Position numbers and translations under genes: made by a program. A stretch of DNA of 36,786 nt from Gammaproteobacteria bacterium (GTDB lineage Bacteria; Pseudomonadota; Gammaproteobacteria; Steroidobacterales; Steroidobacteraceae), in assembly GCA_028293805.1 (NCBI GenBank), contig JAQGOC010000312.1:1-36786 (forward strand), written 5' to 3'. This document shows positions 13,144-27,841 of this stretch, piece by piece. The notes beneath the pieces are model-generated. The model saw only the letters and a program-made list of their open reading frames with translations. It had not been told where the DNA came from and did no database searches. Positions within the stretch are counted from its first letter, which is position 1. The number at the start of each line of letters is the position of its first letter.

Positions 13144-13854
13144 TCATCGTCCCTTGCCGACCAGGTCGGCATCGACCCGCGAGGCGTGATGGCCCCAATT
13201 TCCACGAAGATAGTTGGCGACCGCTGCAATCTCCGAGTCGCCCAGGACATCTGCGTAAGGCCGCATGGTTTCCCAAGCCCCTAGCGAGATGCCCTTTGAC
13301 GGCCCCGCGCCGTAAAGGATGACGTTGATGAGTGAGGATGGATCCTCGGCCTGCACGATGGCACTTCCGGCAAGCGGTGGGCCCGTGAAAATGCCGCCGC
13401 GTCCGGAGGCGCCATGGCATTTCTGACAGCGATCGCGATAGATCGCCTCGCCCGGGGCCATCAGCTCCGGGGTCACGGGCGTAGCCGCTTCCCCGCCTTG
13501 CGGCAAGCTCTTGATGTAGGTAGCCACCGCTCGAACATCGCCGGCGGTCAACTTCGAAGTGCTGTTTGCGATGACCTTATTCATCGGGCCGAAAGTACCG
13601 GCACGCGGACTGAAGCCGGTGCGCAGATATTTTGCGAGATCGTCCAAGGACCAGGACTTGAGGCCTGCCGATGACGAAGTCAGATTGACCGCTGACCAGC
13701 TCCGACTCTTCTCGCCGTCTACATGCTCGCGAATGCTTCCTCCCTGCCGTGCTCGCCTGGATCGGAGCAGCAGGGTCTGAGACTCGTCAACACCTGAAAT
13801 ACCAATTGCAATGAGCGCTGCGAGGACCCGATACAGACTGCGCGAACGCGCCAT
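13144..13854 (-). CDS. Truncated c-type cytochrome (alcohol dehydrogenase cytochrome-subunit type)
   Basis: A 236-aa frame. Residues 136-220 form an intact monoheme cytochrome c domain with CQKCH (143-147) and probable axial Met197. Residues 53-118 (SAVNLTSS to YIKSLP, with a Met at 91) match the second half of a preceding heme domain in the multi-heme cytochrome subunits of membrane alcohol/aldehyde dehydrogenases, but its CxxCH half is missing. Residues 1-52 hold a weak signal-like stretch (YRVLAALIAIGI) and then Arg-rich sequence unlike the family. The gene seems to have lost its 5' half, roughly 150-200 codons by family comparison. It may be a pseudogene or a surviving exported one-heme carrier. 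ATG 13854 is chosen as the start of the hydrophobic leader; no good ribosome binding site is seen. Confidence 0.6.
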   Translation of the reverse strand: MARSRSLYRVLAALIAIGISGVDESQTLLLRSRRARQGGSIREHVDGEKSRSWSAVNLTSSSAGLKSWSLDDLAKYLRTGFSPRAGTFGPMNKVIANSTSKLTAGDVRAVATYIKSLPQGGEAATPVTPELMAPGEAIYRDRCQKCHGASGRGGIFTGPPLAGSAIVQAEDPSSLINVILYGAGPSKGISLGAWETMRPYADVLGDSEIAAVANYLRGNWGHHASRVDADLVGKGR

Positions 13855-13956
13855 AGCTGACGAAGTCGTAAATCTCAAGCGCGCCGCCAAGGCTGGCACA
13901 GGATGACCCGCGCCTCGGTCCGTCGGATATCTATCGCGAGTTTCCGGAACTCTCCC

Positions 13957-14259
13957 TCAACCTCTGGCGCTCCATGAATCGCAGTGCCCCTTGGAGTTGA
14001 CCGTAGCGCTGAAAATCGCGCAAGAGCCGCAACCAGAGCTGCCGGCTTGGAACAACCCGCAGGCCGAACAGGATTTGGATGGATCGGGCGAGAGCTCGCT
14101 GTAGTGCAATGAGCTCGCCAGGCCGCTATCCATCCCCTTGGGGTCCGCGCAGACCTGGTCAGCCGCCGCCGCCACCCCTGTCGCAGCGGCGATCGTTCCA
14201 GCCAGCGTGAGTTGCAAGCTGGATCGCAGTAATCCACGCCGTGAAATCAGCGTCGCCAT
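13957..14259 (-). CDS. High-potential iron-sulfur protein (HiPIP), Tat-exported
   Basis: A 100-aa precursor. Residues 1-33 are a twin-arginine signal (ISRRGLLRSS, then an Ala-rich hydrophobic run). The mature part carries KSCSACGLFQ (Cys64, Cys67), GCGSC (Cys77, Cys80) and GHCDSW (Cys93), the HiPIP pattern that binds one [4Fe-4S] cluster cycling between +2 and +3. One of Cys77/Cys80 is extra. HiPIPs are periplasmic one-electron carriers feeding reaction centres, reductases or oxidases; no photosynthesis gene is in view. GAGAG lies about 9 nt before the ATG. It sits downstream of two class II cytochromes, supporting a role as electron acceptor or relay for the cluster. Confidence 0.92.
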   Translation of the reverse strand: MATLISRRGLLRSSLQLTLAGTIAAATGVAAAADQVCADPKGMDSGLASSLHYSELSPDPSKSCSACGLFQAGSSGCGSCAIFSATVNSKGHCDSWSARG

Positions 14260-14390
14260 GGTTCAAAACTCTCTTTCATTCACGCAAACATCTCACCGCG
14301 GTAGGGAACCGAATAGCCCCTACCCGACCGTTCGCCGCAAATGCGGCGCCCTCCTGACGTTCCCGGCCGGTGTCGCCGCCGAATGGGGGA

Positions 14391-14831
14391 TCATTTCTTT
14401 TCGGCACGATAGACGTCGTGGCACCCTTTGCACGACAGCGCATCAACCACGTTCGCCAGCGCCGCGTCGGTTCCCTGCTCGCGCGAAATCTTCGCCATTT
14501 CCGCCGTCTTGCGCGAAAAATCATTCATGCGCTTGGAAAAGTCCGCCCAATTGCTCCAGACTTCCGGTTTCGCCTCCCCGCCCGGGGCCTTTGCCTCAAA
14601 GGCCTTGAGTGCGAGAGAAGCAGCCAGAGCGATGGCCTCCAAATGAGCCGCGGTATTGTCGCCGGGTATCGTCGTCGAAAGGATCTGCCCCAACGCCGCG
14701 CTCTGTTCGTTGAGCGTCTTCATGATGTGCTGGCGGTACTCGATGGTTTCCTTGCCGTCGGCATGGCCCGCCGCGGGCATCAACATGATCGCCGCAGCAC
14801 CGAACGCAGCCGCTCTGGTCGCCCGCATCAT
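14391..14831 (-). CDS. Class II cytochrome c (c556/c' type), copy A
   Basis: A 146-aa exported cytochrome. The signal peptide ends near AAGHA (about residue 24). The mature protein is a four-helix bundle with the class II layout: the heme motif CKGCH (134-138) is at the extreme C-terminus and YRQHIMK near residue 32 supplies the likely axial Met37, which points to a low-spin c556-like carrier rather than a five-coordinate c'. I chose ATG 14831 (GAGG about 9 nt upstream), discarding a longer frame that begins inside the upstream gene. It starts 11 bases after the stop of copy B, and its ribosome binding site adjoins that stop, so the two are co-translated. Confidence 0.9.
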   Translation of the reverse strand: MMRATRAAAFGAAAIMLMPAAGHADGKETIEYRQHIMKTLNEQSAALGQILSTTIPGDNTAAHLEAIALAASLALKAFEAKAPGGEAKPEVWSNWADFSKRMNDFSRKTAEMAKISREQGTDAALANVVDALSCKGCHDVYRAEKK

Positions 14832-14842
14832 TGGCACGCCCC

Positions 14843-15313
14843 TCACTTCTTTTCTTCCCGATAGACGTCGTGGCATCCCTTGCAGGTGAGCGCCGATTCC
14901 ATCTTCGGCGCCGCCGCCGCCAGGCCACCCTGCTTTGCCGTCTTGGCCAGGTCGGCGGTCGCGGCAACCAGCTCGTTGAGGCGCTTCGAGAAATCCTGCC
15001 AGTTGGCCCAGACTTCGGCCTTTGCCTTCCCACCGACCACTCTCGGCGTAAAGGCGTTCTTTGCCGTTGCGGCGGTCACGGCAAGGATTTCCGCATGCAC
15101 TGCCAGATTCTCGGGCGCGATCTTCGCCTGGCGCATCTGATTCATTGCCGCTACCTGCTCTCCCATCGTCTTCATGACGTGCTCTCGGTAATCGATGACC
15201 TCCTGGTCGTCGGCGAAAGCGTTCACCGGAAGGAGTGACGTCCCCATGAACGCCGCTCCCACCAATGTCAGCTTGAGGAGCGCTGCCGATCTGTTCCTGA
15301 GCAAGAGGATCAT
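14843..15313 (-). CDS. Class II cytochrome c (c556/c' type), copy B
   Basis: A 156-aa exported cytochrome paralogous to its downstream neighbour. It has a signal peptide ending near NAFA, YREHVMK (axial Met47), VWANWQDFSKR in the third helix and CKGCH (144-148). Both copies end CHDVYR-x-EKK, a sign of tandem duplication. ATG 15313 has AGGA 8 nt upstream; the longer frame to 15385 would precede the signal peptide. A 212-base gap separates it from the 367-aa gene upstream, and this gap contains a creatininase relic, so the present spacing was made by gene loss. Likely role: electron transfer in the periplasm together with the HiPIP. Confidence 0.9.
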   Translation of the reverse strand: MILLLRNRSAALLKLTLVGAAFMGTSLLPVNAFADDQEVIDYREHVMKTMGEQVAAMNQMRQAKIAPENLAVHAEILAVTAATAKNAFTPRVVGGKAKAEVWANWQDFSKRLNELVAATADLAKTAKQGGLAAAAPKMESALTCKGCHDVYREEKK

Positions 15314-15365
15314 TGGATTGTCCTGAGATAATGCCGCGAAATTCGCGACTGATGGATTCGGTGTG

Positions 15366-15480
15366 TCAACTCGCGACGGCGACAATGTGCTTAGTCAAGC
15401 CAATCGTACCGGGCAAGTCGGGGTTCGCGTTGTTCGGGGCAAGCGGTGTTGCCGGAAGCGCAATTGCGCGGCGCGCAGGT
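15366..15480 (-). pseudogene. Relic of a creatininase-family gene
   Basis: Read on the minus strand, this stretch gives AIALPATPLAPNNANPDLPG then TIGLTKH before a stop. It matches the intact creatininase-family protein at 25565-26434 in the segment AIAMPVLPVSPNNASAEMPG then TIGLTNE. Only about 30-35 residues remain, without start or metal-binding segments. It lies between the 367-aa gene and cytochrome copy B, so a homologous amidohydrolase gene once stood inside the redox cluster. Confidence 0.65.
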
Positions 15481-15525
15481 AAGCCCCCGCTCGATTTCGA
15501 ATTGAAGGCGCCCCGACGTGCGCGC

Positions 15526-16629
15526 TCAGTGCGCCGCATCCGCCGTCCTTTGGACCGGTTCCGCCGGGTTCGCATCGGTATGTTCGATGAACACCTGGGT
15601 CATATTGACCGTGATGGCGGACGAAATCGCAGTCATCGCGCCGTCCTTGTCCGGATAGGCATCCGCATTCTGGCGGAGGGCCCAATAAAACTCCGACGGA
15701 TCCAACCGGCCATAGGCCAAATGGTGCGTCGACCAGCTCGTGAGCCAGTGATAGTAGGAATCGACATCGGTATAGCCTGCGATCAGCCCGTCGGCCGAGG
15801 TCGAAGACAGCTTCAGATTCAAACGCATATCGTGGATGTGGAGAACCGTCGGGACATCGAAATAGATCGCCCAGGGCCACACCCCCTCGATCGGATCCGT
15901 AGTCAGGACACCGTTTGCGATCCTGCCATGCATGTGCTGGATGAGCTGCTTGCCGTAATGCATGTCGACTCTCTGCGACCCGCCCGGCGCGACCTTTTCT
16001 CCGGTTGCGTCGAGCAGTAAAGGATCCCGGCCCCGATAAATGGTCACTTCGACATTATCGGCATTCACCAAACTGTCGACCTGGGTGATCTCGATCATGA
16101 TTCGATCGAACCCGAAGCTTCGGATCAGTTTGTTGGCGAAAAGCTGCAGCTGACCGTCAGGCGAGCGGAATTGCGCATTGCAGCCGATTACGCGGAAGAA
16201 TTGATTGTTGATACCTGTCTCGCCCGTGGGGCTGACGAAATCATTCGGCCCGACCTTGCCGTCGAGGTTCAACCCGATGGCGACCGGTCCCTTGGCCAGA
16301 ATGTAGGGAAATTGCGCCTGCTTGTCCTGGGGGAACACTTTGAGCCCTTCGCGGGCAAGCTGGGTGGTCTCGACCGGTCCGCCCTGGGGAAACAAAGCCT
16401 TGAATGTTTCGCGCGGCCCGTTGCCGTTGAGCCCATCCGGACAATCCACGCTCAGGTTTGGAGTCTGATAGACGGACCAATGCAAATCGGTGGTGACATA
16501 GCCGATGCTGCGATCCCGGAGCTGCGATGTGGTCTCGTCCGCGTTGACGAGGCGAGTGCTCCCCAAGCCCGTGGTCGCCAGCACTGCGCACAGTGCCATC
16601 CCATACGCCCTGTTTGAAAGGCTTTTCAT
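15526..16629 (-). CDS. Unrecognised exported protein of the redox cluster
   Basis: A 367-aa protein that I cannot assign to a family. The N-terminus is a signal peptide (MKSLSNRAYGMALCAVLATT, cleavage near LVNA). The mature part has only two cysteines (VDCPDG, VIGCNA) and no heme motif. It has several His-containing stretches, DLHWSVYQTPN, QLIQHMHGRI, VLHIHDMRLN and STHHLAYG, that could bind metal. Many short beta-like segments suggest a beta-sandwich. The ATG lies 47 bases after the stop of the Lipoprotein_15 gene, so it is probably in the same transcript. Co-location with cytochromes, HiPIP and DUF1592/DUF1552 proteins suggests a periplasmic subunit or substrate-binding protein. Confidence 0.75.
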   Translation of the reverse strand: MKSLSNRAYGMALCAVLATTGLGSTRLVNADETTSQLRDRSIGYVTTDLHWSVYQTPNLSVDCPDGLNGNGPRETFKALFPQGGPVETTQLAREGLKVFPQDKQAQFPYILAKGPVAIGLNLDGKVGPNDFVSPTGETGINNQFFRVIGCNAQFRSPDGQLQLFANKLIRSFGFDRIMIEITQVDSLVNADNVEVTIYRGRDPLLLDATGEKVAPGGSQRVDMHYGKQLIQHMHGRIANGVLTTDPIEGVWPWAIYFDVPTVLHIHDMRLNLKLSSTSADGLIAGYTDVDSYYHWLTSWSTHHLAYGRLDPSEFYWALRQNADAYPDKDGAMTAISSAITVNMTQVFIEHTDANPAEPVQRTADAAH

Positions 16630-16676
16630 TGAATTCTCCCCTTGCCTGCACTCGCCCTGCAGACCGTTTTCATCGG

Positions 16677-18047
16677 TCAGCCGCGGCTGAACAACTCATT
16701 GCGAATCCAGAACGCCCTGAAACCATTGCGCCGGCCTTGCCATTCGCCGAGCGCATTTCCCTCAAAATCGGCGGGCTGCCTGTCGCCTGCATACGTGTAA
16801 ACTGGTCTGTCGCGATACGCCCAGACGCGCAACGCGCCGGGTTGATGAGGCTGCGCCGCGCGGCCGGTCTGCGGATCGATCGTGATGACTGTCCAGATCC
16901 GGCTGTTGCTTTTCGCCTCGGGCGCGGCGAGCACGTAATGCCACAAGCGTTGGCACCGGGCCGGATCGCCGCCGCCGCAAATCGCCAAACGGTATTGCTG
17001 GGGACTGTCCAACGTATCACAGGACAACTGATCGGCGGAGTCATCGCCGCAGGTGTAGAAATAAACGGTCATGCCCCTGCTGTCGGCAAGCACATCCCCG
17101 TTGATTGTCTGTTGAATCGAGAACGGTTTTGGCGGCGCGGGCGCCAATTGCGTGTACACGTTGTGCCAACCAGACACTTCGCTACCGTCGAGACTCGCCT
17201 CGACCTCATCACGTGCGTAGGTATAAAGGGGCTTCTTTCGGAACGCCCATTGCCGGACGGCGGGCGATCGTTTGATGATCGTCCATTCTCCCTGCGGCCG
17301 CGCCGTTGCAGGCGCGATCATGGGCTGCCAGATCAGCGCGCAAGCGTCATTGCAGTTGGATGCGTTGCGAGCATCATTGTCCGAAACGTAGACGGAAAGT
17401 CGCTTTTCGGCCAACAACATGCGGCCGCGAACGGTAGTTTCGACCAAGAAACCCGGTGGGACGGCGGGCGGCGGGCCGACCGGCATACGCTCGGCCGGCG
17501 TGTCGCCGCCGCTCCTGAACGTCGCTGTACCAGCCATAACGTCGCCCGGCGCGTGATCGAGATACGACGTGTATAGGGCGTGATGGTCGTACGCCCATTG
17601 CTTCGTATCGTCACTGCGCGTGATGATGGTCCAGTCGCCCACGGGCTTTGCCTTGGCATCCACCAGAACTGGTGCCCATTCGGCGACACAGCTCTTGCGT
17701 CGGTCGAGATCCGGCAGATCCAATCCGTCCGGATAAGGGCTCATGTACCCCCCGGTCTTTGTCGTGACCTTGTCCTCGCAGACCGACTTGTCTTTCGGAT
17801 CGCCCGCATATCCATTGCGCAACGATGCAATGGGCCATTTGTACAGAGTTCTGCCTCGGGAGTCGGCGAAGACCGGGCCCTCGAGCTCGGTCGGGATCAC
17901 CTTGAAACCCGGCGGCATGGGGACGTGGGAGTAGGCTTCCGAAAGCTGGGACGCTTCGGGGGCCGGAAAGGGTTTCTCTTTGCCCGAGCCGACGTTGACG
18001 ACGCCAAGCGCCAGGAGAATGCCCATTATTCCGACTGGCGGTCTCAT
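16677..18047 (-). CDS. Exported COG4315/Lipoprotein_15 protein, three repeats
   Basis: A 456-aa protein from ATG 18047 (GAGG 7 nt upstream) with a hydrophobic signal (GIMGILLALGVVNV). It contains three copies of the Lipoprotein_15 secreted repeat, whose hallmark is an aromatic-x-aromatic-x-x-D motif: GRTLYKWPIAS, LSVYVSDND and VYFYTCGDD open the repeats, while KKPLYTYARD and DRPVYTYAGD close two of them. Each repeat has a Cys-containing core (SCVAEWAPVL, NCNDACALIW, CQRLWHYVL), the family's C-x3-C-x3-W theme or a variant. The biochemical role of this family is not known to me. Its place between DUF1552 and the 367-aa gene, plus a single-repeat relative beside the creatininase gene, points to a shared envelope function. 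Confidence 0.82.
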   Translation of the reverse strand: MRPPVGIMGILLALGVVNVGSGKEKPFPAPEASQLSEAYSHVPMPPGFKVIPTELEGPVFADSRGRTLYKWPIASLRNGYAGDPKDKSVCEDKVTTKTGGYMSPYPDGLDLPDLDRRKSCVAEWAPVLVDAKAKPVGDWTIITRSDDTKQWAYDHHALYTSYLDHAPGDVMAGTATFRSGGDTPAERMPVGPPPAVPPGFLVETTVRGRMLLAEKRLSVYVSDNDARNASNCNDACALIWQPMIAPATARPQGEWTIIKRSPAVRQWAFRKKPLYTYARDEVEASLDGSEVSGWHNVYTQLAPAPPKPFSIQQTINGDVLADSRGMTVYFYTCGDDSADQLSCDTLDSPQQYRLAICGGGDPARCQRLWHYVLAAPEAKSNSRIWTVITIDPQTGRAAQPHQPGALRVWAYRDRPVYTYAGDRQPADFEGNALGEWQGRRNGFRAFWIRNELFSRG

Positions 18048-18079
18048 ACCAAATCCTCTGGTCGCGCGCAGCGTAGGGG

Positions 18080-19414
18080 TCACACCAGGATCTCGCCGAT
18101 TTCCTTGGACGTGTTGTTCGACTGGGTGCCCCACGCGGGAATGTCTACGCCCATCGTCTTCATCATCGTGTAGCCCAGGCGCGCCGCGGGAGTTCTGGCG
18201 CCGTCGATGTGCAAACCGGTCTTGAGCTTGCCGCCGGCGCGGCCGGCCGTGAACATCGGCAGGCCTTCGATGGAATGTATCTTGGCGAATGACTGATCGG
18301 TCGACGCATAGATCAGCATGTTGTCGAGCAGCGTCCCATCACCTTCCTTGACCTTCGAAAAAGCCTCCACGAAATAGGCCCAGGATTCGAAGGAGCGCCG
18401 CAGGAACCACGACACCATGGGCTGATAGCCTAGTTTCTCGTCGACCGGCTCTTCATGCGAGGCGGTGTGATGTGGCTTCTCGTAGCCGATCTTGGTCGTT
18501 GAGGCGAAAGACTTGGAATAGGTCATGTTGAACACGCGCGTCTGATCGCAGGCCACCGCCATGACCAGAAGATCCGTGAACAGACGATGGCGCTCCGCGA
18601 CCAATTCGAAGTCGACGCCTGTCTTGAGCTCCTTCGGAGCCGCAATCATACGACAGGCCTCGCGCGGTTCCGGCTTTTCAAGCTGCCGGTCCAATTGACG
18701 CTCGAGCTCACGCAAGCCCGTGAAATATTGATCGATGCGCGCCCTATCCTCCGCGCCGACCTCGGTCATCAGTTTCTTGGCGTCATCGCTTACGCTGGAG
18801 AGAACACTTTGCCGCACCAGAATCTTGGGGCTCGGCTTGAATTCCTTGGCATTCGGATCCTGAAAATCCCCGCCGAACATCGTCGTATACAGGGCCAGCG
18901 GCGACCCTTCGGCATTGTTGATCGAGCTGGCGCTTTCGTAGCTGTAGGTATCGCGCGGATCCCCTGTCGCCGACACAGTCACGGACGGAAAGCGCGTGGT
19001 CGTGCCGATCTTCTTTGCGACGGTGACGTCGATGGTCTCGCCGGGGCGCGAACTCGTATTTGCGGGCGCGCTGCCGCTGCGCAGAATGATCCACCCCGTC
19101 GTGTGGCAGAGATTCGGCATTGCGTCCCGAAGCGCATTGAAATTTGTAAAGAGATTGATCTTGTCGCGCACCGGCGCAAGCGAGGCAATCTCTTCCGGAA
19201 GATCGAAATCGGGGCCGGTCTTCGTGGGCACGAAGATGACTTTGCTCATGCCCAGACCCCAGCCCCAAGTGCCGAAGCGGATCGGAAGCGGCGCGCCATT
19301 GGCCAGGGCCGTCCCGTTATCGTTGATAAAGCAATTCAGCAGCGGCAGGCCCACCGCAACAGCAGCGCCATTCAACATTCCGCGCAATACGCGGCGACGA
19401 CTGAGAGCTTTCAT
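18080..19414 (-). CDS. DUF1552 family protein, Tat-exported
   Basis: A 444-aa protein. ATG 19414 has an excellent ribosome binding site (GGAGGTATCC then ATG). The N-terminus ALSRRRVLRGMLNG followed by a hydrophobic run is a twin-arginine signal. The body matches DUF1552: FGTWGWGLGM near the start, the SRPGETIDVTVAKKIG region, the ARIDQYFTGLRELERQL segment and PHHTASHEE near the C-terminal third. DUF1552 proteins are almost always partners of DUF1592-type proteins, as here, and their function is unknown; Tat export implies they fold, perhaps with a cofactor, before crossing the membrane. It begins 16 bases after the DUF1592 stop codon, so the pair is one transcript. Confidence 0.9.
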   Translation of the reverse strand: MKALSRRRVLRGMLNGAAVAVGLPLLNCFINDNGTALANGAPLPIRFGTWGWGLGMSKVIFVPTKTGPDFDLPEEIASLAPVRDKINLFTNFNALRDAMPNLCHTTGWIILRSGSAPANTSSRPGETIDVTVAKKIGTTTRFPSVTVSATGDPRDTYSYESASSINNAEGSPLALYTTMFGGDFQDPNAKEFKPSPKILVRQSVLSSVSDDAKKLMTEVGAEDRARIDQYFTGLRELERQLDRQLEKPEPREACRMIAAPKELKTGVDFELVAERHRLFTDLLVMAVACDQTRVFNMTYSKSFASTTKIGYEKPHHTASHEEPVDEKLGYQPMVSWFLRRSFESWAYFVEAFSKVKEGDGTLLDNMLIYASTDQSFAKIHSIEGLPMFTAGRAGGKLKTGLHIDGARTPAARLGYTMMKTMGVDIPAWGTQSNNTSKEIGEILV

Positions 19415-19430
19415 GGATACCTCCGGGACT

Positions 19431-21221
19431 TCATTGGGCCACAGCCTGAGAAGCCGGCAAGCTGGCCGTCCTCGGCGCCGGCGCCGGCGCAGCTGGGGTT
19501 TCGGCGACTTCTGAAAATGCGGTGCTGAGCGCGATGGCCCGCAGCAGATCGGGGACGCGATAGCCTGAGGCTGCAAAGCGCTGATTGAGATAGGCCAATT
19601 CTGGATTGTCGGCGTCCGTCAGTGGCCCACCAGCGCCATAGCTGTACATGCGCTTGACCAGGCATACAGGCAGCCCGGGATGATCGTGCACGGCTTGCGC
19701 CAGGCCGACGGGGTCTTTGAAATCCTTACCGTCCAGACTGCCGTTGGCGTCGATGTCAACGCCCCTCTCGGTGAGGCGATATTGGCCACCCCCGTCGAAA
19801 TTCTCCAAAGCCAAGCCGATCGGATCGGTGATGCGATGGCAGCCGGCGCATACCGGATTGCTGCGGTGAGCCGTCAGGCGCTCGCGCGCGGTATGAAAAT
19901 TCGCCTTTGGATCCTCGAGAATGGAAAAATCAACATTGGGCGGCGGTGAGGGCACTTTCTGGCACAGCAGCAGTTCGCGCAGCGCCTTGCCGCGCACGGT
20001 GGGCGAACTGCGCGCTGGATGGGAATGTACGGCGAGAAAGCTGACCTGGCTCAAAATGCCGCTGCGGGGACTATCCGGCGGAAACTCGTAAGGCACCCAG
20101 CCCGGGACCGCCGGCACCTGATACACCGCCGCCAAAGCGGGCGAAATGAACGTGTCACGAGTCGTGAACAAATCCCGGTAGTCACGGTCCCGGGTGATCA
20201 GATGGTCGACCACCGTGCGCAGGGTCTGCTCGCGGGCGTCTTTCAACGTAGTGCCGCTGACCTTCGGATAGATGGTCGCGTCCTTGGACAGATTGTCGAA
20301 ATCATCAAAGCCGAACATGTCATCGAAAAAGGCCCGGATGCCGTTTTCGAGGCGCGGGCTGGCAAGCATCATGTTCACCACGCGCGCGCGCCCTGCGGGC
20401 GTATTGATCTCAGCGCTTTCAGCCGACTTCAAAACCGCATCGTCGGGCGCCGAATTCCACAGAAAGAACGACAGGCGCGAGGCAAGCGAGAATGCATCGA
20501 GGCGGCGCCTGCCCGGATGCGCGGGATCCGGTTCGGTTTTGTCGACGATCATCAGCACCATCGGATCGACCAGCATGCCTTCGAGCACGCTCGACAATCC
20601 GGCGTAGAAATCCTTCAGCTCCTCGGCCGCGCGATGTGCCCGGCCCACGAACTCATCGACCTTGGGGCCGCTCAGCGGGCGACGGAACAACAGCCGTCCC
20701 GTGGATCTGATGAACTTGGCTGCGCAGGCATCATCGGGAGCATGGTCCGCCTTCGGTTTGCATGGGACCAGATAGTCCCGGTGCGCCGGCAGCTGGTTCT
20801 CGAGATTGCCGTTATCCACGACCTGGGTGGCGATGGCCGATGCGGAGCGCTGGAGCTGCATCACCTGTCCGGCGGTCACCCCAACCGAGGCACTTGTCGA
20901 GGCCAACAGTCCGTCGGTGCGGCGCAGCGGAGGAATGGGCGTCCCGGGTTTGATGTCGGCGCCGAAGACATCGGCAATCACATTTGCATATTGCTGAGCA
21001 GTCAAGAGGCGCACGCGCGGCGGCGTGCCGGCGTCCTGGGGGCCCAGGTTCTCGGTTGTCGCCGCGCCGGGTGCGCCGTGATCACCTAGAAAATGCGTAC
21101 ACCCCGCGATCCCTAGCGCGCCGGCACCAGCAACAGCCGCCCAGAATGCGCCACCGAATAGACCCGTTGACCGGGCTCGTGAAATTTCGCGAACCGACTG
21201 CACCTGCGTCCCCCTCGACAT
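19431..21221 (-). CDS. DUF1592/DUF1588-type lipoprotein with CxxCH motif
   Basis: A 596-aa protein. The lipobox LGIAGC near residue 42 marks it as a lipoprotein. Modules in order: a DUF1587-like start (RLLTAQQYANVIADVFG), DUF1595/DUF1592 (FIRSTGRLLFRRPLS, then SLASRLSFFLWNSAPDD), DUF1588 (SPTVRGKALRELLLCQ, then NPVCAGCHRITDPIGLALEN) and DUF1585 at the C-terminus. The N-terminal cytochrome domain often fused to these proteins is absent, so CAGCH is the only possible heme site. The start is ATG 21221 without a clear ribosome binding site, or GTG 21203 behind AGGGGG; both keep the lipobox. First gene of the redox cluster, directly behind the 24-bp inverted repeat. Confidence 0.9.
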   Translation of the reverse strand: MSRGTQVQSVREISRARSTGLFGGAFWAAVAGAGALGIAGCTHFLGDHGAPGAATTENLGPQDAGTPPRVRLLTAQQYANVIADVFGADIKPGTPIPPLRRTDGLLASTSASVGVTAGQVMQLQRSASAIATQVVDNGNLENQLPAHRDYLVPCKPKADHAPDDACAAKFIRSTGRLLFRRPLSGPKVDEFVGRAHRAAEELKDFYAGLSSVLEGMLVDPMVLMIVDKTEPDPAHPGRRRLDAFSLASRLSFFLWNSAPDDAVLKSAESAEINTPAGRARVVNMMLASPRLENGIRAFFDDMFGFDDFDNLSKDATIYPKVSGTTLKDAREQTLRTVVDHLITRDRDYRDLFTTRDTFISPALAAVYQVPAVPGWVPYEFPPDSPRSGILSQVSFLAVHSHPARSSPTVRGKALRELLLCQKVPSPPPNVDFSILEDPKANFHTARERLTAHRSNPVCAGCHRITDPIGLALENFDGGGQYRLTERGVDIDANGSLDGKDFKDPVGLAQAVHDHPGLPVCLVKRMYSYGAGGPLTDADNPELAYLNQRFAASGYRVPDLLRAIALSTAFSEVAETPAAPAPAPRTASLPASQAVAQ

Positions 21222-21247
21222 CAAAGTACTTGGTTCAAAAAAAACAA

Positions 21248-21271
21248 TAACACGACCGCTCGGTCATGTTA
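21248..21271. promoter_or_regulatory. 24-bp inverted repeat, candidate TetR-type operator
   Basis: Arms TAACAcGACCG and CGGTCaTGTTA flank a central CT; ten of the eleven arm positions pair. It ends 27 bases before the DUF1592 start codon on the minus strand. A TTGACA-like -35 hexamer lies 10 bases upstream at 21287-21282, so a bound protein would cover the spacer and -10 area and block transcription. The size suits a TetR dimer; the only TetR gene in view is 12328-12918. The pairing is inference. Confidence 0.6.
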
Positions 21272-21415
21272 AGCGCAAGTCTGTCAAGAAACTCGAAGCG
21301 GAGTGCCGAACACGCGATGGCACCGACCGAGACTTTGGTCTCCTCAATTCGCTTTGCCGGCATACCTCATCGTCGATCGCGCACGCTTGACTGGCGGCGC
21401 TGCACTGATTCTGGC

Positions 21416-21448
21416 CGGAAAAGCACCCGCGCCAGAATGTGGCGCGGG
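21416..21448 (-). terminator. Rho-independent terminator of the TonB receptor gene
   Basis: On the minus strand CCCGCGCC and GGCGCGGG pair around a 7-base loop and are followed by TGCTTTTCC. It lies 43 bases past the receptor stop and upstream of the 24-bp operator, so the receptor and the DUF1592-led cluster are probably separate transcripts. Confidence 0.7.
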
Positions 21449-21490
21449 CCGAAAGACAACAGTCCAAAAACATGACGTCTTAAGAAAACT

Positions 21491-24400
21491 TCACATTTCC
21501 AGACGCACGCCGAGGCGAAGGACGCGGCCAAGAACGTCGTACAACGCGGCGTTTGCCGGGAAGAAATCCCAGCCGCTAGCGCCCGGCCCCATCGCCACGA
21601 TCGGCGGATCCCTGTTCAACAGGTTGCGGACGTTGAAGTAAATCGCGGCGTCGGCTTTGTCGACCGTGAAGTGATAGGCAGCGCCGAGGTCGAGATAGAA
21701 AACCCCGGAAATGCGATTGTTCGAGACCGTCACGTTATTCGCGGTGGATGCCGGGCAGCCGGACGTACACTCGATGTTGCTTTGATTATAGACGCCGCTG
21801 CTGATGCCGCGCGCAGTGAGCTGCAAGCTGTAATGATCGAACGCATAATCGACGGCGGCCTGATATTTCCAGCTGGGCAAGCCGGTACTGCCGGCGTTCA
21901 CGCCGGCGTTTTGCGTGGGAATCGAATTGATCGCCCCGCTATCGATGACGTCGCTGATGTAATGCGTAACCTGAGCGTGGAAGCCAAGATTACCCTTCCA
22001 GCCGCTGCTGATCGAGTCCAGAGGCAATCGATATGTTGTTTCCATTTCGAGACGGCGCGCATGCTCGGTCGCGAAATTGAGTGGCTCGATCACGAAATCC
22101 AGGAGCGAGTTGCCGCCTGCGCTCGTTCTGGTAAATGTGTCGCAGGCGGGCGCGCTGCCCGCATAGCACAGATTGACCAATTGCTGCGCGGTAAAAGACT
22201 GGATGCCGCCCGTGATATCGATGATGTAGTAGTCGAGGGATACGCTGAAGCGCGGTATCCACGACGGCTGGTACACCGCCCCGATCACGGTGTTGTTGGC
22301 CCGCTCGGGCACGAGGCCCGCATTGCCGGTCGTCGTGGAACGGTACGCGACCGTCGCATTGTTGTTGAACGGATCGGTGACGCTGTTCGAGGTGGTCGTG
22401 CCCGCCTGGTACAGGTCGACCAATGTCGGTTCGCGAATGTCCAGAGAGCGGGTCGCACGAAATCTCAGATCGTCGAACGGACTATAGGAGGTGCCCACTT
22501 TCCAGGTGCGGGTCGAGCCGAAAGTGTTGTAGGCGGTCTCGCGGACCGCGGCGTTCAAGTCCAGTTCCTTGGCCAGGAAGACATCCTTCGCCAGCGGAAC
22601 GTTAGTCTCGACATAGCCCTCCGTCACCTTGAAGGAGCCGGAATAAGGAAGCCCGGCGGCAAGGAACCAGGTTCCCGTTTGCGCTTCCTCCGGGTCGGAG
22701 AAGGAGCTGGTGGATTCTTGGCGGTGCTCTACGCCGAGGGCAAAGGAGACAGGGCCGGCCCAATCGTGGAACGGCGAGCCGTGCAGATTGGCGCTGAAAA
22801 CCTTCTGATCCAGCCTTGCATGGCTGTACGGATTGGCAATGACGTAATCGATCGCAGCCTGGCTGGCGACGCCCGTGCCGAACACGTTCAGCGGAACGCA
22901 GCCATTGCCCGGATTGGCCAGCGTCGAGGCGCAGGCGATGGATCCGTCCGGCGCGCGCACGGCGTTTATCGCCTGCATGTAGCGCGGAACATTGATCGTA
23001 TTGCCCGAGATCACCTGCTGCAGGCTGAACCCATAAGAGGCATAGGCGTCCCACGTCCAATCCGTGTGGAAAGCGTTGAAGTTGCCGTCACTGCCGAGCA
23101 GGAACCGCGTGACCTGGCGATCCGTAATAGGGTGCTGGATACCGAGGTCGCCGTTGAAGGTTCCGAATTTGAATGAGGAGACATTCGCCGCCGCCAGGCC
23201 CGCGGCGATATTCGTGGGAAGGAACGCGTTTTGCGCCGAGATCGTCAAATTACCAGGATAGAACACCGGAACGCTGTCCGACAACGAGTGCAAATGAGCA
23301 TAAGAGACCTGCCCGTAGACCTCGGCACTATCGGCCACATCGTAGCTGGCGCGGGCGAAAATGTTCTGGCGACGTTGTTCAGGTGCAATCGCGGCGCCCA
23401 GGACGTTGGCTACGGTCTGCGAAGACCAGCTGCCGCCTGACATCAGCGGGTCGGACACAATGGATCCGAAGACTTCCTGCGTCTGGGCACCACCCGGACC
23501 AAACATCGTTCCTCTGAACGGGCCACTGGCGATCGTGCCGCCATAGCTGGCGGTGTCGACCCCGATGTGGTTGGTGAGAATGTTGAGCGGTTGCCCATTT
23601 GTCCGCGTGTAGTTGGGATTCGTGATGTACCCCCAACCGTTATTGTTCCAAGGCCGTTTGGCGATCAACAGGCCGTCGTCGTTGGACGTTTCGCCGCTGA
23701 TTTCAAAATGGCCGCGCCCCTGCGCGAATGACGTGCCGGCGGTAAGATTGGCCCGCCAGTTCCGGTCATCGCCATAGCTCGTTTCACCGCCCGACACCTC
23801 GGCTTTGATGCCGGTGAACTTCGTATCGAGCACAAAGTTTACAATGCCCGTCAAAGCATCCGAGCCGTACCCCGCGGACGCGCCCCCGGTGACCACGTCG
23901 ACACGCGTGATGAGCTGTTGCGGCAGTTCGCTGACATCGACGACACCGGTCAGAAGCGAGCCGACGGTACGCTGGCCGTTGACCAGGACCAGAGTCCGGG
24001 TGGCGCCGAGACCACCGATATTCAGGGCATTGACGGCTTGCTGACCACTGGTGACCGTGACGGCGGTGGTTTGCGGGGTTGAGCTCCCCGCAAAATTCGG
24101 CAGCGTATTGAGCGCATCGGCTACGTTCGAAGTGGCGTTGCCTTGCAAGACCTCGCTGCTGATCACCGAGACGGGCGTCGGAGACTTGTATCCGTCGCGA
24201 ACGATGCGCGATCCCGAAACGACCACCTCTTGGACGGGCGTCGACGTTTGCTGGGATTCGGCCTGGGCATAGGCGACACTTGCACCGCCACCTTCAATTG
24301 CGGCCAGCAGCGGCGCCGCGCAGAACGCGGCCAGCGCTCTGCGTTTTGCCATTTTGCGTACGATAGGCTCTGTGCCGAACCTGTATCCAATAAGACTCAT
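21491..24400 (-). CDS. TonB-dependent outer-membrane receptor
   Basis: A 969-aa protein from ATG 24400 (GGAGAGGGGG about 10 nt upstream). A long basic leader precedes a hydrophobic signal (RRALAAFCAAPLLAAI) cleaved near AYAQ. A TonB-box-like VQEVVVSGSR leads into the plug domain (PTPVSVISSEVLQGNA, then ALNIGGLGATRTLVLVNGQR, then GGASAGYGSDALTGIVNFVL), and the rest is a 22-strand-type beta-barrel with many aromatic strand ends. The last residues LRLGVRLEM deviate from the usual terminal aromatic residue. The plug style is that of receptors for organic substrates rather than siderophores, though the ligand cannot be read. It stands alone between a terminator and its own leader and adjoins the redox cluster it may feed. 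Confidence 0.95.
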   Translation of the reverse strand: MSLIGYRFGTEPIVRKMAKRRALAAFCAAPLLAAIEGGGASVAYAQAESQQTSTPVQEVVVSGSRIVRDGYKSPTPVSVISSEVLQGNATSNVADALNTLPNFAGSSTPQTTAVTVTSGQQAVNALNIGGLGATRTLVLVNGQRTVGSLLTGVVDVSELPQQLITRVDVVTGGASAGYGSDALTGIVNFVLDTKFTGIKAEVSGGETSYGDDRNWRANLTAGTSFAQGRGHFEISGETSNDDGLLIAKRPWNNNGWGYITNPNYTRTNGQPLNILTNHIGVDTASYGGTIASGPFRGTMFGPGGAQTQEVFGSIVSDPLMSGGSWSSQTVANVLGAAIAPEQRRQNIFARASYDVADSAEVYGQVSYAHLHSLSDSVPVFYPGNLTISAQNAFLPTNIAAGLAAANVSSFKFGTFNGDLGIQHPITDRQVTRFLLGSDGNFNAFHTDWTWDAYASYGFSLQQVISGNTINVPRYMQAINAVRAPDGSIACASTLANPGNGCVPLNVFGTGVASQAAIDYVIANPYSHARLDQKVFSANLHGSPFHDWAGPVSFALGVEHRQESTSSFSDPEEAQTGTWFLAAGLPYSGSFKVTEGYVETNVPLAKDVFLAKELDLNAAVRETAYNTFGSTRTWKVGTSYSPFDDLRFRATRSLDIREPTLVDLYQAGTTTSNSVTDPFNNNATVAYRSTTTGNAGLVPERANNTVIGAVYQPSWIPRFSVSLDYYIIDITGGIQSFTAQQLVNLCYAGSAPACDTFTRTSAGGNSLLDFVIEPLNFATEHARRLEMETTYRLPLDSISSGWKGNLGFHAQVTHYISDVIDSGAINSIPTQNAGVNAGSTGLPSWKYQAAVDYAFDHYSLQLTARGISSGVYNQSNIECTSGCPASTANNVTVSNNRISGVFYLDLGAAYHFTVDKADAAIYFNVRNLLNRDPPIVAMGPGASGWDFFPANAALYDVLGRVLRLGVRLEM

Positions 24401-25030
24401 TGTTAGATAACCCCCTCTCCAGTCTATTCTTAGGATGACTGGTCGGCTAATTAATAGCAAGGGGTACTTTGCGGTTTACCGCCTGTGTATTTTCGAATTT
24501 GCATGCGCGGATGATGGCCGGCGTCTCCCTGACCTTCCGAATACCGCTGCCGATGTTCAGCGCTTGGGTCTTGTCCTTTAAAGGAGCCAACCCTGGCGTG
24601 TGAACTGCTTGCGACTCCACCCGGATAGCCATCGGCATGTTACATACATGAATATTCCGGAAGATCGACGACTACCCGGATATGAGGTGGCACAAGGGAG
24701 ACAAACAAGAATGAGCCGCGCATCGAGTGGACGCCTGCGCACGCGATTTTACTCGCGCGGTGCTCACCTGACGGACGCATTTCGCCACGGAGCGGATGCA
24801 AGGGTTACCCGTACTGTTGTCTGCTCGTGTTACTCGACGCGAGGCAGATGGTCGCGGGGCACCCCACGAAGCGGTGCGTCGGCATTCACAAACAGCAGAC
24901 TTTCCGACAGCTGGCACGATATCACTGCCGTCACGTATCGCTCATTGCTGCGCGTGGAGACATTCTCGTTAGCTCAGGTCACGGCAACGACAAGCATTAT
25001 TCACCCGAGGATCGGACAATTCTCCCGTCA
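24401..25030. other. Intergenic region upstream of TonB receptor, no supported gene
   Basis: About 630 bases. CCAGTC and GACTGG arms at 24419-24442 may be a regulator site close to the receptor start. A plus ORF 24711-25034 (107 codons) is preceded by GGGAGA, but its product is Arg/Ser/Thr-rich with no recognisable motif, so I leave it uncalled. Confidence 0.4.
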
Positions 25031-25387
25031 TTAGGGCGATAGCAAGTGCCATACACCGTCTATGCCATCACCCTTGTTTCCGCCGGGTATGTCCTGCGCG
25101 TGGGTGTAGACCGGATTGCCACGGAACGTCCACTGGCGAGCCTCACCGCGCTCAATCGTCTTCCACTCGCCGACAACAGGCGTCGCACCGATAGAGGCGA
25201 TCAGCGGCGGCCAGCTTTTGCTGCACGCCTTGATACAGTGCGATTGGCCGTCCACATCGAAGTCATATCGGTACAGAGCCATGCCATCTTGATTCCGCAG
25301 AATGTAGACGCCGTCTTCTTCGAACAAGCTCACATCGACCGGTGTCGGCGGCGCAGTACGCTGCGGCCTGGATTGGCGATCAGTCAT
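25031..25387 (-). CDS. Single-repeat COG4315/Lipoprotein_15 protein, no signal peptide
   Basis: A 118-aa protein with one secreted-repeat unit: GMALYRYDFDVDG opens it (aromatic-x-aromatic-x-x-D), HCIKACSKSWPPL is the cysteine core and NPVYTHAQD the closing motif. It is the same family as the three-repeat protein at 16677-18047, and its core is closer to the family consensus. The N-terminus MTDRQSRPQRTAPPTPVDVS has no export signal, which is odd for this family; it may act in the cytoplasm, or have lost its 5' end. The ribosome binding site is weak. It lies 177 bases downstream of the creatininase-family gene on the same strand and could share its transcript. Confidence 0.75.
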   Translation of the reverse strand: MTDRQSRPQRTAPPTPVDVSLFEEDGVYILRNQDGMALYRYDFDVDGQSHCIKACSKSWPPLIASIGATPVVGEWKTIERGEARQWTFRGNPVYTHAQDIPGGNKGDGIDGVWHLLSP

Positions 25388-25564: not shown

Positions 25565-26434
25565 CTATCCCTTCGGCGGAATGAAGGTCTCGATCTGCTT
25601 GACGGCATAGTCCACCTTGATGTCGAAGGCGCGCTTGCCGAGTTCGGCACTGGAGCGCCGAGCATCGCCGATGATCCCGTTCTTCTGCGCGCCCGGGGCG
25701 GGTTGCGGCCGCCCGTCCGGACCTACAGGGATGCCTACTGCTGTAGGAAGCAACTCCTTGCGCACGTATGTTCCGTCATGGTCCAGATACATCATCATTG
25801 AGGTATCCACCATCCCGCCATGCAGGCTGCGCGGGTAGCCCTGCTCGCCCAGTATTTTGTCGAACGCCGTGTTCGCCGGCATGTATACCTGATCGCAGTA
25901 AAAGACGTGAATGCCCGTGGCGCTGTACTTGTCGTTCAACCGTGTCGCCACTTTTCTATAGACGTTCGCGTCCCCATCGCCCTGCCCGCCCCCGTGGTCG
26001 CCCATCACCACAACATTCTTGAATCCTGTCACGATCGATTGTTCGACCAGGCGCTCCAGCACCTGCTCCAGCAGCTCATTGGTCAACCCGATGGTTCCCG
26101 GCATCTCCGCGCTGGCGTTGTTCGGACTAACGGGCAGCACTGGCATGGCGATGGCGTTGCCAAGGCGTAACGCAATCGCTCTGACGATCCCGCGTGCCAT
26201 CAGGTTGTGGCCGCCGTTGGCGTTCTGAGGTCCCCGCTGTTCAACGCCACCGGTATAGATGAGCGCAGTCGTCTTGCCCGCGGCCAGGGCGTCTCTCACT
26301 TCAGGCCAAGTCATCAGCTCGAACTCGACAGGCTGCGCGCGAGAAGTTGAGCCCGCAGCGCAAGACGACCGCGGGGTCAGTGCCGCAGTTGCAAACAACG
26401 CGAGCGCCAGGCTCGCTACAAAAAGATTGCGCAT
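25565..26434 (-). CDS. Exported creatininase-family amidohydrolase, altered metal site
   Basis: A 289-aa protein with AGGGA 8 nt before the ATG and a signal peptide (SLALALFATAALT, cleavage near SCAA). Family blocks: TWPEVRDALAAG (42-53), TGGVEQRGPQ (61-70), GGHNLMA (74-80), MPGTIGLTNE (111-120), VVVMGDHGGGQ (141-151) and HGGMVDTSMMMYL (205-217). Classical creatininase uses a EQHGP and TD pair and NGHGG; here Arg replaces the His in EQ-x-GP and His76 replaces the Asp, as in the exported branch of the family, which I recall using EQNGP and GKHN. It should be a metal-dependent hydrolase of a cyclic or linear amide in the periplasm; substrate unknown. A short tandem pattern of CCAAGT units precedes the ribosome binding site at about 26446-26470. 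Confidence 0.88.
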   Translation of the reverse strand: MRNLFVASLALALFATAALTPRSSCAAGSTSRAQPVEFELMTWPEVRDALAAGKTTALIYTGGVEQRGPQNANGGHNLMARGIVRAIALRLGNAIAMPVLPVSPNNASAEMPGTIGLTNELLEQVLERLVEQSIVTGFKNVVVMGDHGGGQGDGDANVYRKVATRLNDKYSATGIHVFYCDQVYMPANTAFDKILGEQGYPRSLHGGMVDTSMMMYLDHDGTYVRKELLPTAVGIPVGPDGRPQPAPGAQKNGIIGDARRSSAELGKRAFDIKVDYAVKQIETFIPPKG

Positions 26435-26509: not shown

Positions 26510-27841
26510 TTATCCCATCTCGGGCACGGTTTGCAAGGCCGCGACGTCAGCGCCGTGGGCATCATTTCGTATCTGTCCGTCATGACGCTTCACAAGTAAA
26601 CTCGCCACGAGGCCGAGCGCTGCTGCTGATGCCAAGAACCATCCGGGCGCATACAAGAGGCCCGTCTCGCGAATGAGGGAGGTGGCGACCAGAGGCGCCG
26701 CGCCACTGAAAACTGTCATGCCAATGTTGAGCACCAGTGCGATGCCCGTGAAGCGGATGCGCGTTGGAAACAGATCCGCGATCAGGTAGGCGAATGTGCC
26801 ATTGAACAAGCCAGCGGCTATTCCTCCCAATATGAGTGGAAGCCGCGGGTCTGCACCGCTATGCACGATGGCGCCATACCACGGCACCGAGAGCAGGGTG
26901 AACAGCAACGTGCCTGTCATCATGAGGCGGCGGGGAGGGACGTAGCGGCCGATCCATGCCGTCGCCAACAATGCGACGCTATGGGCGACCAACGCCATGT
27001 TCTGAGCAAGCACCGCCATGCCCGGGCCGACGCTCAAAACGGTTTTCAGGTAGGCGGGCATGTAGGCAAACAGCAGACCGTTGAACGCTCCCGTGCTCGC
27101 CACGAGCCCGATCCCGATCAGCACCTTTTGCGGATGTGTTCGCAAAAGCTCTGCGAATGGCCTTGACGACGTTTGCCTCCGAACGCGTTCGAACTCGGGT
27201 GATTCTTCCAGGGATCTGCGCACCCAGAATCCAACTACGCCCAATGCGCCGCCGATCCAGAACGGAATCCGCCATCCGTAGGTGGGAACGAGGTGCGGGG
27301 GCAGGAAATTCTGAATTAACAAGCTGAGCACGGTCGCCACGACCACGCCGCCCATCACACAGAAGAACACGAAACCGCTCGCAAAGCTCGCTCGCTTCGG
27401 CGCAACTTCTACGACATAAGTAATCGCGCCAGGCAACTCTCCGCCAAGGCAGAAGCCCTGCAGCAATCGCAGCACAACCATCAGGATCGGTGCGGCGAGT
27501 CCCCAGTGCTCATAGGAGGGCACGAGTCCCATCCCGAGCGTCGCGCCCGACATCCCGAGCAGCGAGACAACGAAGACTCGCCTGCGTCCGAACCGATCTC
27601 CAAAATGACTCAGCACGATGCCGCCAACTGGCCGGGCGACATAGCCGACGGCGAACGCGCCGAAGGAGGACATCAGAGAAATTAAAGGAGAGGACGACGG
27701 AAATATGGCGCGGGCAATCTCTGCCGCAAAGATCCCGTAAACGATGAAGTCGTAGTATTCAAGCGCCCCGCCAAGACTAGCGAGGAGCATCGTGCGCTTG
27801 CTCGACTCGGACAACCGCGACGCATCCGGTGTTGAACTCAA
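26510..27841 (-). CDS. MFS transporter of the metabolite:H+ symporter (MHS/ProP) family
   Basis: A 443-aa protein with about 12 hydrophobic segments. MHS marks are GALEYYDFIVYGIFA in the first helix, ARPVGGIVLSHFGDRFGRRR in the 2-3 loop and RLLQGFCLGGELPGA in helix 4, then YGWRIPFWIGG with ESPEF in the central loop. MHS proteins take up organic acids and osmolytes (for example shikimate, citrate, dicarboxylates, betaine) with protons. The start is TTG 27841 with an AGGGGGGG run just upstream. A 9-bp inverted repeat at 27925-27953 lies about 85 bases before it. It precedes the creatininase gene by 75 bases on the same strand, so transport and hydrolysis may be co-expressed. Confidence 0.92.
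   Translation of the reverse strand: MSSTPDASRLSESSKRTMLLASLGGALEYYDFIVYGIFAAEIARAIFPSSSPLISLMSSFGAFAVGYVARPVGGIVLSHFGDRFGRRRVFVVSLLGMSGATLGMGLVPSYEHWGLAAPILMVVLRLLQGFCLGGELPGAITYVVEVAPKRASFASGFVFFCVMGGVVVATVLSLLIQNFLPPHLVPTYGWRIPFWIGGALGVVGFWVRRSLEESPEFERVRRQTSSRPFAELLRTHPQKVLIGIGLVASTGAFNGLLFAYMPAYLKTVLSVGPGMAVLAQNMALVAHSVALLATAWIGRYVPPRRLMMTGTLLFTLLSVPWYGAIVHSGADPRLPLILGGIAAGLFNGTFAYLIADLFPTRIRFTGIALVLNIGMTVFSGAAPLVATSLIRETGLLYAPGWFLASAAALGLVASLLVKRHDGQIRNDAHGADVAALQTVPEMG

Follow-up and report, generated by a model that had tools for sequence, protein, structure and literature searches.

The ordinary PSCyt/PSD and DUF1552 gene pair, in which a gene for the domain series PSD3-PSD5-PSD4-PSCyt3-PSD2 is followed by a DUF1552 gene, shares this arrangement with an island of eight collinear minus-strand genes in a gammaproteobacterium of the family Steroidobacteraceae (GenBank assembly GCA_028293805.1). 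The island lies next to the gene of a TonB-dependent receptor on contig JAQGOC010000312.1 (C307), which was analysed at its full length of 36,786 nt and is called the window below; it is one of 392 contigs of a 5.77-Mb genome. Compared with the ordinary pair, the subfamily in the window lacks the PSCyt1-type N-terminal heme domain, has THEE in place of SHH in DUF1552, and is accompanied by a Lipoprotein_15 protein and a 367-aa protein, named U367 here. The genes for DUF1592, DUF1552, Lipoprotein_15 and U367 were shown to form a nearly fixed unit of four, the cassette, that recurs across scattered proteobacteria.

Other described systems resemble parts of this locus. Triheme cytochromes c are subunits of membrane-bound alcohol and sugar dehydrogenases, and three CXXCH motifs were counted in 32 of the 33 distinct relatives of the last cytochrome of the island. 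Unlike such dehydrogenases, the cassette loci showed no GMC, pyrroloquinoline quinone (PQQ) or molybdenum types among the neighbour representatives scanned with Pfam (26 of 32 non-core cluster representatives; clusters 16, 28, 30, 31, 32 and 35 were left out), and the window copy of the cytochrome has a single heme. SusCD-type polysaccharide utilisation loci occur in many paralogous copies per genome beside a TonB receptor. Many cassette copies were likewise found in one genome, many of them beside a TonB receptor, but the same neighbour representatives included neither glycoside hydrolase nor SusD, and heme proteins were encoded instead. Cbp2D of Cellvibrio japonicus is a multidomain exported heme protein with a DUF1587 annotation (PMC8981238), as in the DUF1592 protein of the window; it also has a carbohydrate-binding module (CBM), FN3 and a YceI-like domain, whereas Pfam found only PSD and PSCyt3 domains in the window protein. 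In Verrucomicrobia, PSCyt3 genes were noted to adjoin families of unknown function (PMC5615132). A literature search that covered few subscription journals returned no functional account of DUF1592/DUF1552, PSCyt, Lipoprotein_15 or this gene set.

Four-gene core and its recurrence

The core of the island comprises the following genes:

19431..21221, minus strand: DUF1592-type heme protein, PSD3-PSD5-PSD4-PSCyt3-PSD2, predicted lipoprotein with one CXXCH and without PSCyt1 (Pfam, domain comparison)
18080..19414, minus strand: DUF1552 protein (HXXSHH family), twin-arginine (Tat)-type signal by eye, HHTASHEE, internal ATG start (Pfam, motif)
16677..18047, minus strand: Lipoprotein_15 repeat protein with conserved Cys, Trp and Tyr, internal ATG start (Pfam, conservation)
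15526..16629, minus strand: U367, exported 367-aa protein of a family outside Pfam and NCBIfam, predicted up-and-down barrel with a long N-terminal segment (alignment, model)

A U367 profile made from ten sequences led to 65 loci in named genome records, on which 82 U367 copies were mapped. The gene before U367 on the same strand was Lipoprotein_15 in 74 of the 82 cases and another U367 in the remaining 8. Of the 49 copies that follow Lipoprotein_15 with 5.5 kb or more of room, 43 had DUF1592, DUF1552, Lipoprotein_15 and U367 in complete order; the six exceptions were extra Lipoprotein_15-U367 pairs or had no DUF pair. Since the loci were collected via U367, these order counts describe the partners of U367.

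The sequence-only reading had proposed a pathway in which the receptor imports a compound, the DUF proteins and the unknown protein act on it, and electrons leave through the cytochromes and HiPIP; it had named beforehand the lack of linkage in other genomes as a result that would refute this. Linkage beyond chance was found, with a core collinear in 43 of 49 copies, and this part of the pathway reading was borne out; the rest held in part. The eight genes do not form a fixed unit, as only four are constant and the receptor and carriers come and go, although all eight recur in four further loci (L029, L076, L081 and L084), each with two class II cytochromes, HiPIP and cytochrome c as in the window.

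Records with the cassette belonged to Steroidobacter, Peristeroidobacter, Pseudohongiella, Woeseia, OM182, Bradyrhizobium and many metagenome-assembled bacteria; the labels Marinimicrobia and Klebsiella among them look like mislabelled or mixed bins. The distribution of the family is patchy, because U367 was found in 5 of 99 relatives (own genome included) and in none of the 369 other genomes of the class sample. Its occurrence in cultivated Steroidobacter and Peristeroidobacter strains makes the function accessible to gene-removal and substrate tests. Rhodospirillaceae bacterium SSF9 (G474, 4.0 Mb; stretches L092-L111) had the highest number and an unusual expansion of paralogues, with 24 cassette-type DUF1552 genes and 30 U367 match rows, one protein being split over two of these rows.

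Divergent relatives of U367 (E 1e-8 to 1e-37) also accompany a cassette-type DUF pair, in different orders. U367 comes first in L093, L110, L112, L115 and L119, while L114, L116 and L118 begin with HiPIP and a class II cytochrome and have no Lipoprotein_15 match; in L118 the HiPIP match was under the Pfam cut-off and the class II cytochrome over it. In the same locus a single 567-aa frame (L118:8941-10641) combines a divergent U367 with a VOC domain, of the glyoxalase/dioxygenase superfamily. In L019, L072, L083, L085 and L086 the cassettes have a separate VOC-like gene next to them. A protein of about 145 aa is encoded directly after U367 in five loci (L089:11018-11452, L061, L066, L067 and L074); the L089 member had no Pfam match.

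DUF1592/DUF1552 subfamily of the cassette

The pair in the window had been taken for the common, uncharacterised DUF1592/DUF1552 pair. By Pfam it does share the DUF1587-1595-1592-1588-1585 series and the adjoining DUF1552 gene with the ordinary pair, but scores, motif, tree and heme domain all place it in a separate subfamily. In the 12 genomes that hold U367, DUF1552 scores separated into 26 matches at 235-360 bits (ordinary) and 56 at 137-184 bits (cassette-type). U367 was encoded within 6 kb on the same strand for 54 of the 56 low-scoring genes and for 0 of the 26 ordinary ones. Two cassette-type DUF1552 genes were exceptions in having no U367, and for 8 of 66 U367 rows, several of them on short contigs, there was no DUF1552 within 6 kb. 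Among the 99 relatives, the five genomes with U367 were also the five with clear cassette-type DUF1552 scores; a partial match in G058 (84 bits, profile positions 1-111) was left unassigned to type, and two matches in G062 (126 and 106 bits) fell below the range of 137-184 bits.

In the DUF1552 tree (64 tips, 63 of them distinct as one gene was entered twice, L037 and L095), the 22 ordinary sequences formed one clade and the 42 cassette tips lay across the midpoint root, with supports of 1.0 and 0.83. The tree labels A and B reflect the source and score of the sequences and do not mark clades; A spans 38 tips.

The motifs differed in the same way. All 22 ordinary rows had SHH, as part of HxxSHH followed by a later stretch such as GSNMSNSxxH. 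Cassette proteins had HxxTH(E/D)E or HxxSHEE, with a later (T/S)Dxxxx(R/K)xH or close variants; HEE was present in all 61 distinct first-set rows and TH(E/D)E in 14 of 14 divergent rows. In the window protein HHTASHEE stands in place of HxxSHH. These positions may represent a changed metal site.

Two CXXCH motifs were present in all 20 ordinary DUF1592 proteins that were found. A single motif was counted in all 60 cassette rows of the first set, of which 57 are distinct, and in 15 of 16 low-scoring rows added later; among those 16, L111 has no CXXCH and L104 is cut by a contig end. Complete cassette DUF1592 proteins were about 250 aa shorter than ordinary ones, and the extra N-terminal part of the latter is PSCyt1-like, being over the cut-off in one of the two scanned and below it in the other. 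The window protein has no N-terminal PSCyt1-type heme domain and only one CXXCH, a heme motif that the sequence-only reading had not mentioned. A simple interpretation would be that a heme for the entry or exit of electrons, once part of the protein, was lost and that separate carriers now serve instead, with genes nearby or elsewhere depending on the lineage.

No U367 or Lipoprotein_15 was detected by the models used in 21 ordinary loci, and two of the 22 ordinary DUF1552 genes (L143, L144) had no DUF1592 by the model used. Searches against PDB sequences gave nothing of weight for DUF1592 (protein and profile) or DUF1552 (protein), and only three matches, at E 0.76, for Lipoprotein_15 (protein and profile). 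The comparison sets apart a DUF1592/DUF1552 subfamily whose partners are nearly fixed, whose candidate metal site is changed and which lacks one heme domain.

U367 protein

The 367-aa protein had been described as unrecognised, and indeed no Pfam or NCBIfam model matched it; together with nine relatives it gave no Pfam match at E<=1. U367 is thus a protein family absent from Pfam and NCBIfam and defined here. Residues invariant in the alignment include Cys63, Cys150, Asp123, Asp130 and Arg199; STHH at 300-303 is kept in nearly all sequences. An AlphaFold model based on 81 sequences reached a mean predicted local distance difference test score (pLDDT) of 86.0 and a predicted template modelling score of 0.83, and consists of an N-terminal segment with short helices followed by the strands of an up-and-down barrel; a first run with 10 sequences (pLDDT 49.8) was set aside. 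The best VIA-align match was an avidin-like barrel (Z 6.4, root mean square deviation 4.4, 111 aligned), a resemblance that may reflect a common arrangement only. Avidins and one barrel domain of 1jju (quinohemoprotein amine dehydrogenase, Z 5.5), the nearest structural look-alikes, score within the range of such arrangements and are not taken as evidence on U367. The U367 profile gave a single match among PDB sequences, at E 0.32.

Electron carriers

The remaining genes of the island encode small redox proteins:

14843..15313, minus strand: class II cytochrome c with distal Met (Pfam, conservation)
14391..14831, minus strand: second class II cytochrome c, with Met where Alcaligenes cytochrome c' has Leu16 (Pfam, alignment)
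13957..14259, minus strand: high-potential iron-sulfur protein (HiPIP), Tat-type signal by eye (Pfam, Cys conserved in 9 members)
13144..13854, minus strand: triheme cytochrome c remnant, third CXXCH kept, hemes 1 and 2 deleted (Pfam, alignment)

Cytochromes and HiPIP, to which the sequence-only reading had assigned the exit of electrons, proved to be recurrent neighbours but lie outside the fixed core. Of 30 fully flanked cassette loci, 21 had a match to triheme cytochrome c, class II cytochrome or HiPIP; the same models found none in 21 ordinary loci, which had shorter flanks. Carrier sets similar to that of the window were present in L019, L083 and L087, with HiPIP on the other strand in L083.

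With PF01322 (cut-off 26.5), the two class II cytochromes of the window scored 73.4 and 74.3 bits. They carry Met where Alcaligenes cytochrome c' has Leu16, a distal and non-ligating residue, and this Met was kept in 15 of 15 aligned class II rows. The non-ligating distal residue of five-coordinate cytochromes c' was therefore not found, Met standing in its place, and the proteins are predicted from this residue to be electron carriers and not gas binders. The window HiPIP scored 26.3 bits with PF01355 (cut-off 22) and has the conserved Cys pattern.

The terminal gene, which had been listed simply as a cytochrome c, is the remnant of a gene for a triheme protein, with an internal deletion. Besides the 32 relatives with three CXXCH motifs there is one with two, and the window gene encodes a single motif. 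The segment that joins the signal-peptide region to the third-heme part measures 66 nt in the window and 645 nt in L029, and the remnant retains the N-terminus and the third heme motif. The second cassette of the same genome (L019) has an intact triheme cytochrome c of 445 aa. The truncation may be a genuine deletion or an assembly fault.

Receptors, neighbouring enzymes and possible substrates

Upstream of the core, the window contains four further genes on the same strand:

21491..24460, minus strand: TonB-dependent receptor, exchangeable partner (Pfam, linkage)
25031..25387, minus strand: small Lipoprotein_15-like protein upstream of the receptor, likewise in L029 (tblastn, clustering)
25565..26434, minus strand: creatininase-family protein, signal peptide by eye (Pfam; family enriched near cassettes)
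26510..27841, minus strand: transporter of the major facilitator superfamily (MFS), nearest NCBIfam model a metabolite/H+ symporter, below cut-off (Pfam, NCBIfam)

A receptor homologous to that of the window was found in 19 of the 30 fully flanked loci. In SSF9, 16 of 25 mapped U367 frames, which came from fetched stretches of the 30 match rows, lay within 8 kb of a receptor, against a chance level of about 5 of 25 estimated by hand from 44 receptors in 4.0 Mb; the receptor scan scored at most 67 per genome. The imported compound had been supposed to be large, for which no specific evidence was obtained. The MFS transporter is a possible inner-membrane uptake step. In close relatives a PaaX-type regulator stands divergently beside the receptor: L027:1101-2168, L028:1186-2340, L029:607-1788 and L084:18795-19862 (Pfam checked in L027); this cluster has no member in the window.

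Of 31 creatininase-family genes, 13 lay within 10 kb of a cassette DUF1552 gene, where 1.5 were expected (Poisson 7e-9), and 2 within that distance of an ordinary one, where 0.2 were expected; the expectations assume uniform density and treat copies as independent. Of 56 cassettes, 14 had such a gene. The window protein scored 129.7 bits with PF02633 (cut-off 31.3) and 47.7 bits with the model of true creatininase, TIGR04448, far from the cut-off of 235. The genes beside ordinary pairs are L132:4086-4922 and L135:8974-9828. The partnership of creatininase-family genes with DUF pairs may be older than the cassette.

Other neighbours were counted in 68 distinct loci, obtained from 71 clustered loci after removal of double views (L018/L091, L021/L046 and L022/L043) and including many near-identical relatives. 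Lrp/AsnC regulators were found in 9 loci, aminotransferases in 8, CstA in 6, 2-oxoacid dehydrogenase E2 and E3 in 6 with a branched-chain-type E1-alpha in 5, amidases in 5 and agmatinases in 4. The 2-oxoacid dehydrogenase neighbours came from the Steroidobacter group, RYN_607 and a metagenome-assembled Rhodospirillaceae genome. Upstream of the L084 cassette lie a dCache sensor kinase, a sigma-54 regulator and an MHS-type transporter, whose best NCBIfam model, below cut-off, was PRK10406, presumably of the alpha-ketoglutarate permease group. These neighbours point weakly to nitrogenous compounds and organic acids. Our guess, a doubtful one, is that the substrates are amino-acid-, amide- or peptide-like compounds giving 2-oxo or organic acids.

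Proposed function and alternatives

We interpret the cassette as a periplasmic, membrane-anchored oxidoreductase module that bacteria have duplicated and re-equipped, predicted to oxidise small imported compounds and to pass the electrons to cytochromes; its chances seem to us just short of even. A small compound would enter through the TonB receptor, be bound by the U367 barrel and Lipoprotein_15, and be oxidised at the predicted metal site of DUF1552 (HxxTHEE...D...H). Electrons would then reach the single heme of DUF1592 and continue towards the respiratory chain through exchangeable carriers, namely Met/His class II cytochromes, HiPIP and triheme cytochrome c, whose genes lie near the cassette or elsewhere; having lost the N-terminal heme domain, the subfamily would need such separate carriers. 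Creatininase-family and amidase enzymes may trim the compound and the MHS-type transporter may import the organic acid. In this scheme we infer both the direction of electron flow and the substrate. It is possible, although we think it less likely than not, that the cassette represents an undescribed class of periplasmic oxidoreductase, in which THEE-type DUF1552, U367 and Lipoprotein_15 would be catalytic, DUF1592 the heme exit and the carriers interchangeable, with nearly 30 copies per genome in some bacteria, many of them with a TonB receptor and each presumably with its own substrate. If this is true, the multiplied cassettes would be a redox counterpart of polysaccharide utilisation loci.

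Several observations weigh against oxidation of imported compounds by the cassette. Of the 30 fully flanked loci, 11 had no receptor homologous to that of the window. In the window the receptor may be transcribed separately, since a terminator-like hairpin with a T-tract (21271-21248) separates its gene from that of DUF1592; the scan as a whole gave 17 terminator-like sites, compared with 12.9 in shuffles. No separate carrier was present in 9 of the 30 loci, of which L027 and L028 adjoin a carrier-bearing cassette, and the HiPIP match is on the opposite strand in L079, L083 and L085. In the 20 stretches of SSF9, the genome with the most cassettes, no triheme cytochrome or HiPIP was found, and the single class II match (L096) was weak and lay on the opposite strand. 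The triheme cytochrome of the window itself is broken. Foldseek retrieved no PDB chain at E<=0.001 for the U367 model, the neighbours that hint at a substrate are limited to between 4 and 9 of the 68 loci, partly in close relatives, and the scan through which the loci were collected via U367 favours close relatives.

That the genome with the largest expansion lacks carriers near its cassettes makes us slightly less confident in the oxidoreductase module and slightly more so in hydrolytic uptake, in which DUF1552, creatininase-family and amidase enzymes would hydrolyse the imported compound and the cytochromes would belong to general respiration or stress defence. The probable position of DUF1552 near the alkaline phosphatase superfamily, the creatininase-family enrichment and the amidases and agmatinases in 5 and 4 distinct loci agree with hydrolysis, as do the SSF9 cassettes, free of nearby carrier genes save for the one weak match. 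However, the heme motif of DUF1592 was kept in all 60 first-set rows, and carriers were present in 21 of 30 cassette loci as against 0 of 21 ordinary ones, and we regard hydrolysis as quite unlikely. Electrons may also run the other way, from the respiratory chain through the carriers and DUF1592 to an oxygenase, as has been studied for Cbp2D of Cellvibrio and lytic polysaccharide monooxygenases (LPMOs). HiPIP and class II cytochromes are able to carry electrons in both directions, VOC-family proteins adjoin cassettes in five loci, and a VOC domain shares the 567-aa frame with a divergent U367. Cbp2D is annotated with DUF1587 and its cytochrome domain was studied as an LPMO electron donor (PMC8981238), and a lignocellulose table includes a DUF1592 protein with a CBM2 call (PMC6004670). 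Against such a donor, the 26 of 32 non-core neighbour clusters scanned included no glycoside hydrolase, CBM or LPMO, and Pfam found no CBM or FN3 in the window DUF1592; we consider this direction unlikely.

Detoxification of gas or peroxide, with the class II cytochromes and HiPIP protecting the periplasm and the remainder being incidental, would fit the Pfam name of both small cytochromes, cytochrome c'. Classical cytochrome c' proteins bind nitric oxide. The distal Met in 15 of 15 aligned rows predicts six-coordinate carriers instead, and the carriers lie outside the core; this explanation appears very improbable.

Gene coordinates, export signals and further genes

The TonB receptor and the eight minus-strand genes do occupy the positions given earlier, between 24460 and 13144, and the family calls were confirmed as well, with Pfam matches above curated cut-offs for all but the 367-aa protein; the call of the terminal cytochrome c requires the correction given above. 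On the frames as listed, Pfam identified Plug and TonB_dep_Rec (21491-24460); PSD3, PSD5, PSD4, PSCyt3 and PSD2, equal to DUF1587/1595/1592/1588/1585 (19431-21224); HXXSHH/DUF1552 (18080-19576); Lipoprotein_15 (16677-18134); Cytochrom_C_2 (14843-15385 and 14391-14876); HIPIP (13957-14259); and Cytochrom_C (13144-13899). Three repeats had been described in the Lipoprotein_15 protein; two stretches reach the Pfam cut-off alone and the third repeat is recognised by eye only.

Several listed starts were too early. Likely starts further in are 19414 for DUF1552, 18047 for Lipoprotein_15, 15313 and 14831 for the class II cytochromes and 13854 for cytochrome c, and with these the eight genes, taken in order from DUF1592 to cytochrome c, are separated by 16, 32, 47, 212, 11, 131 and 102 nt. 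Export signals, claimed for all eight products, were seen by eye: twin-arginine signals on DUF1552 and HiPIP, a lipobox IAGC on DUF1592 and ordinary-looking signal peptides on the remaining island proteins.

A family of about 350 aa was found near both cassette and ordinary DUF1552 loci (L077:13795-14790, L133:11332-12405 and L049:14107-15189), in multiple copies in some; the L049 member has an HPDLQG motif, and the L077 and L133 members had no Pfam match. A few kb upstream of the island, the window encodes a glutamine cyclotransferase (Glu_cyclase_2) on the plus strand at 29200-30144.

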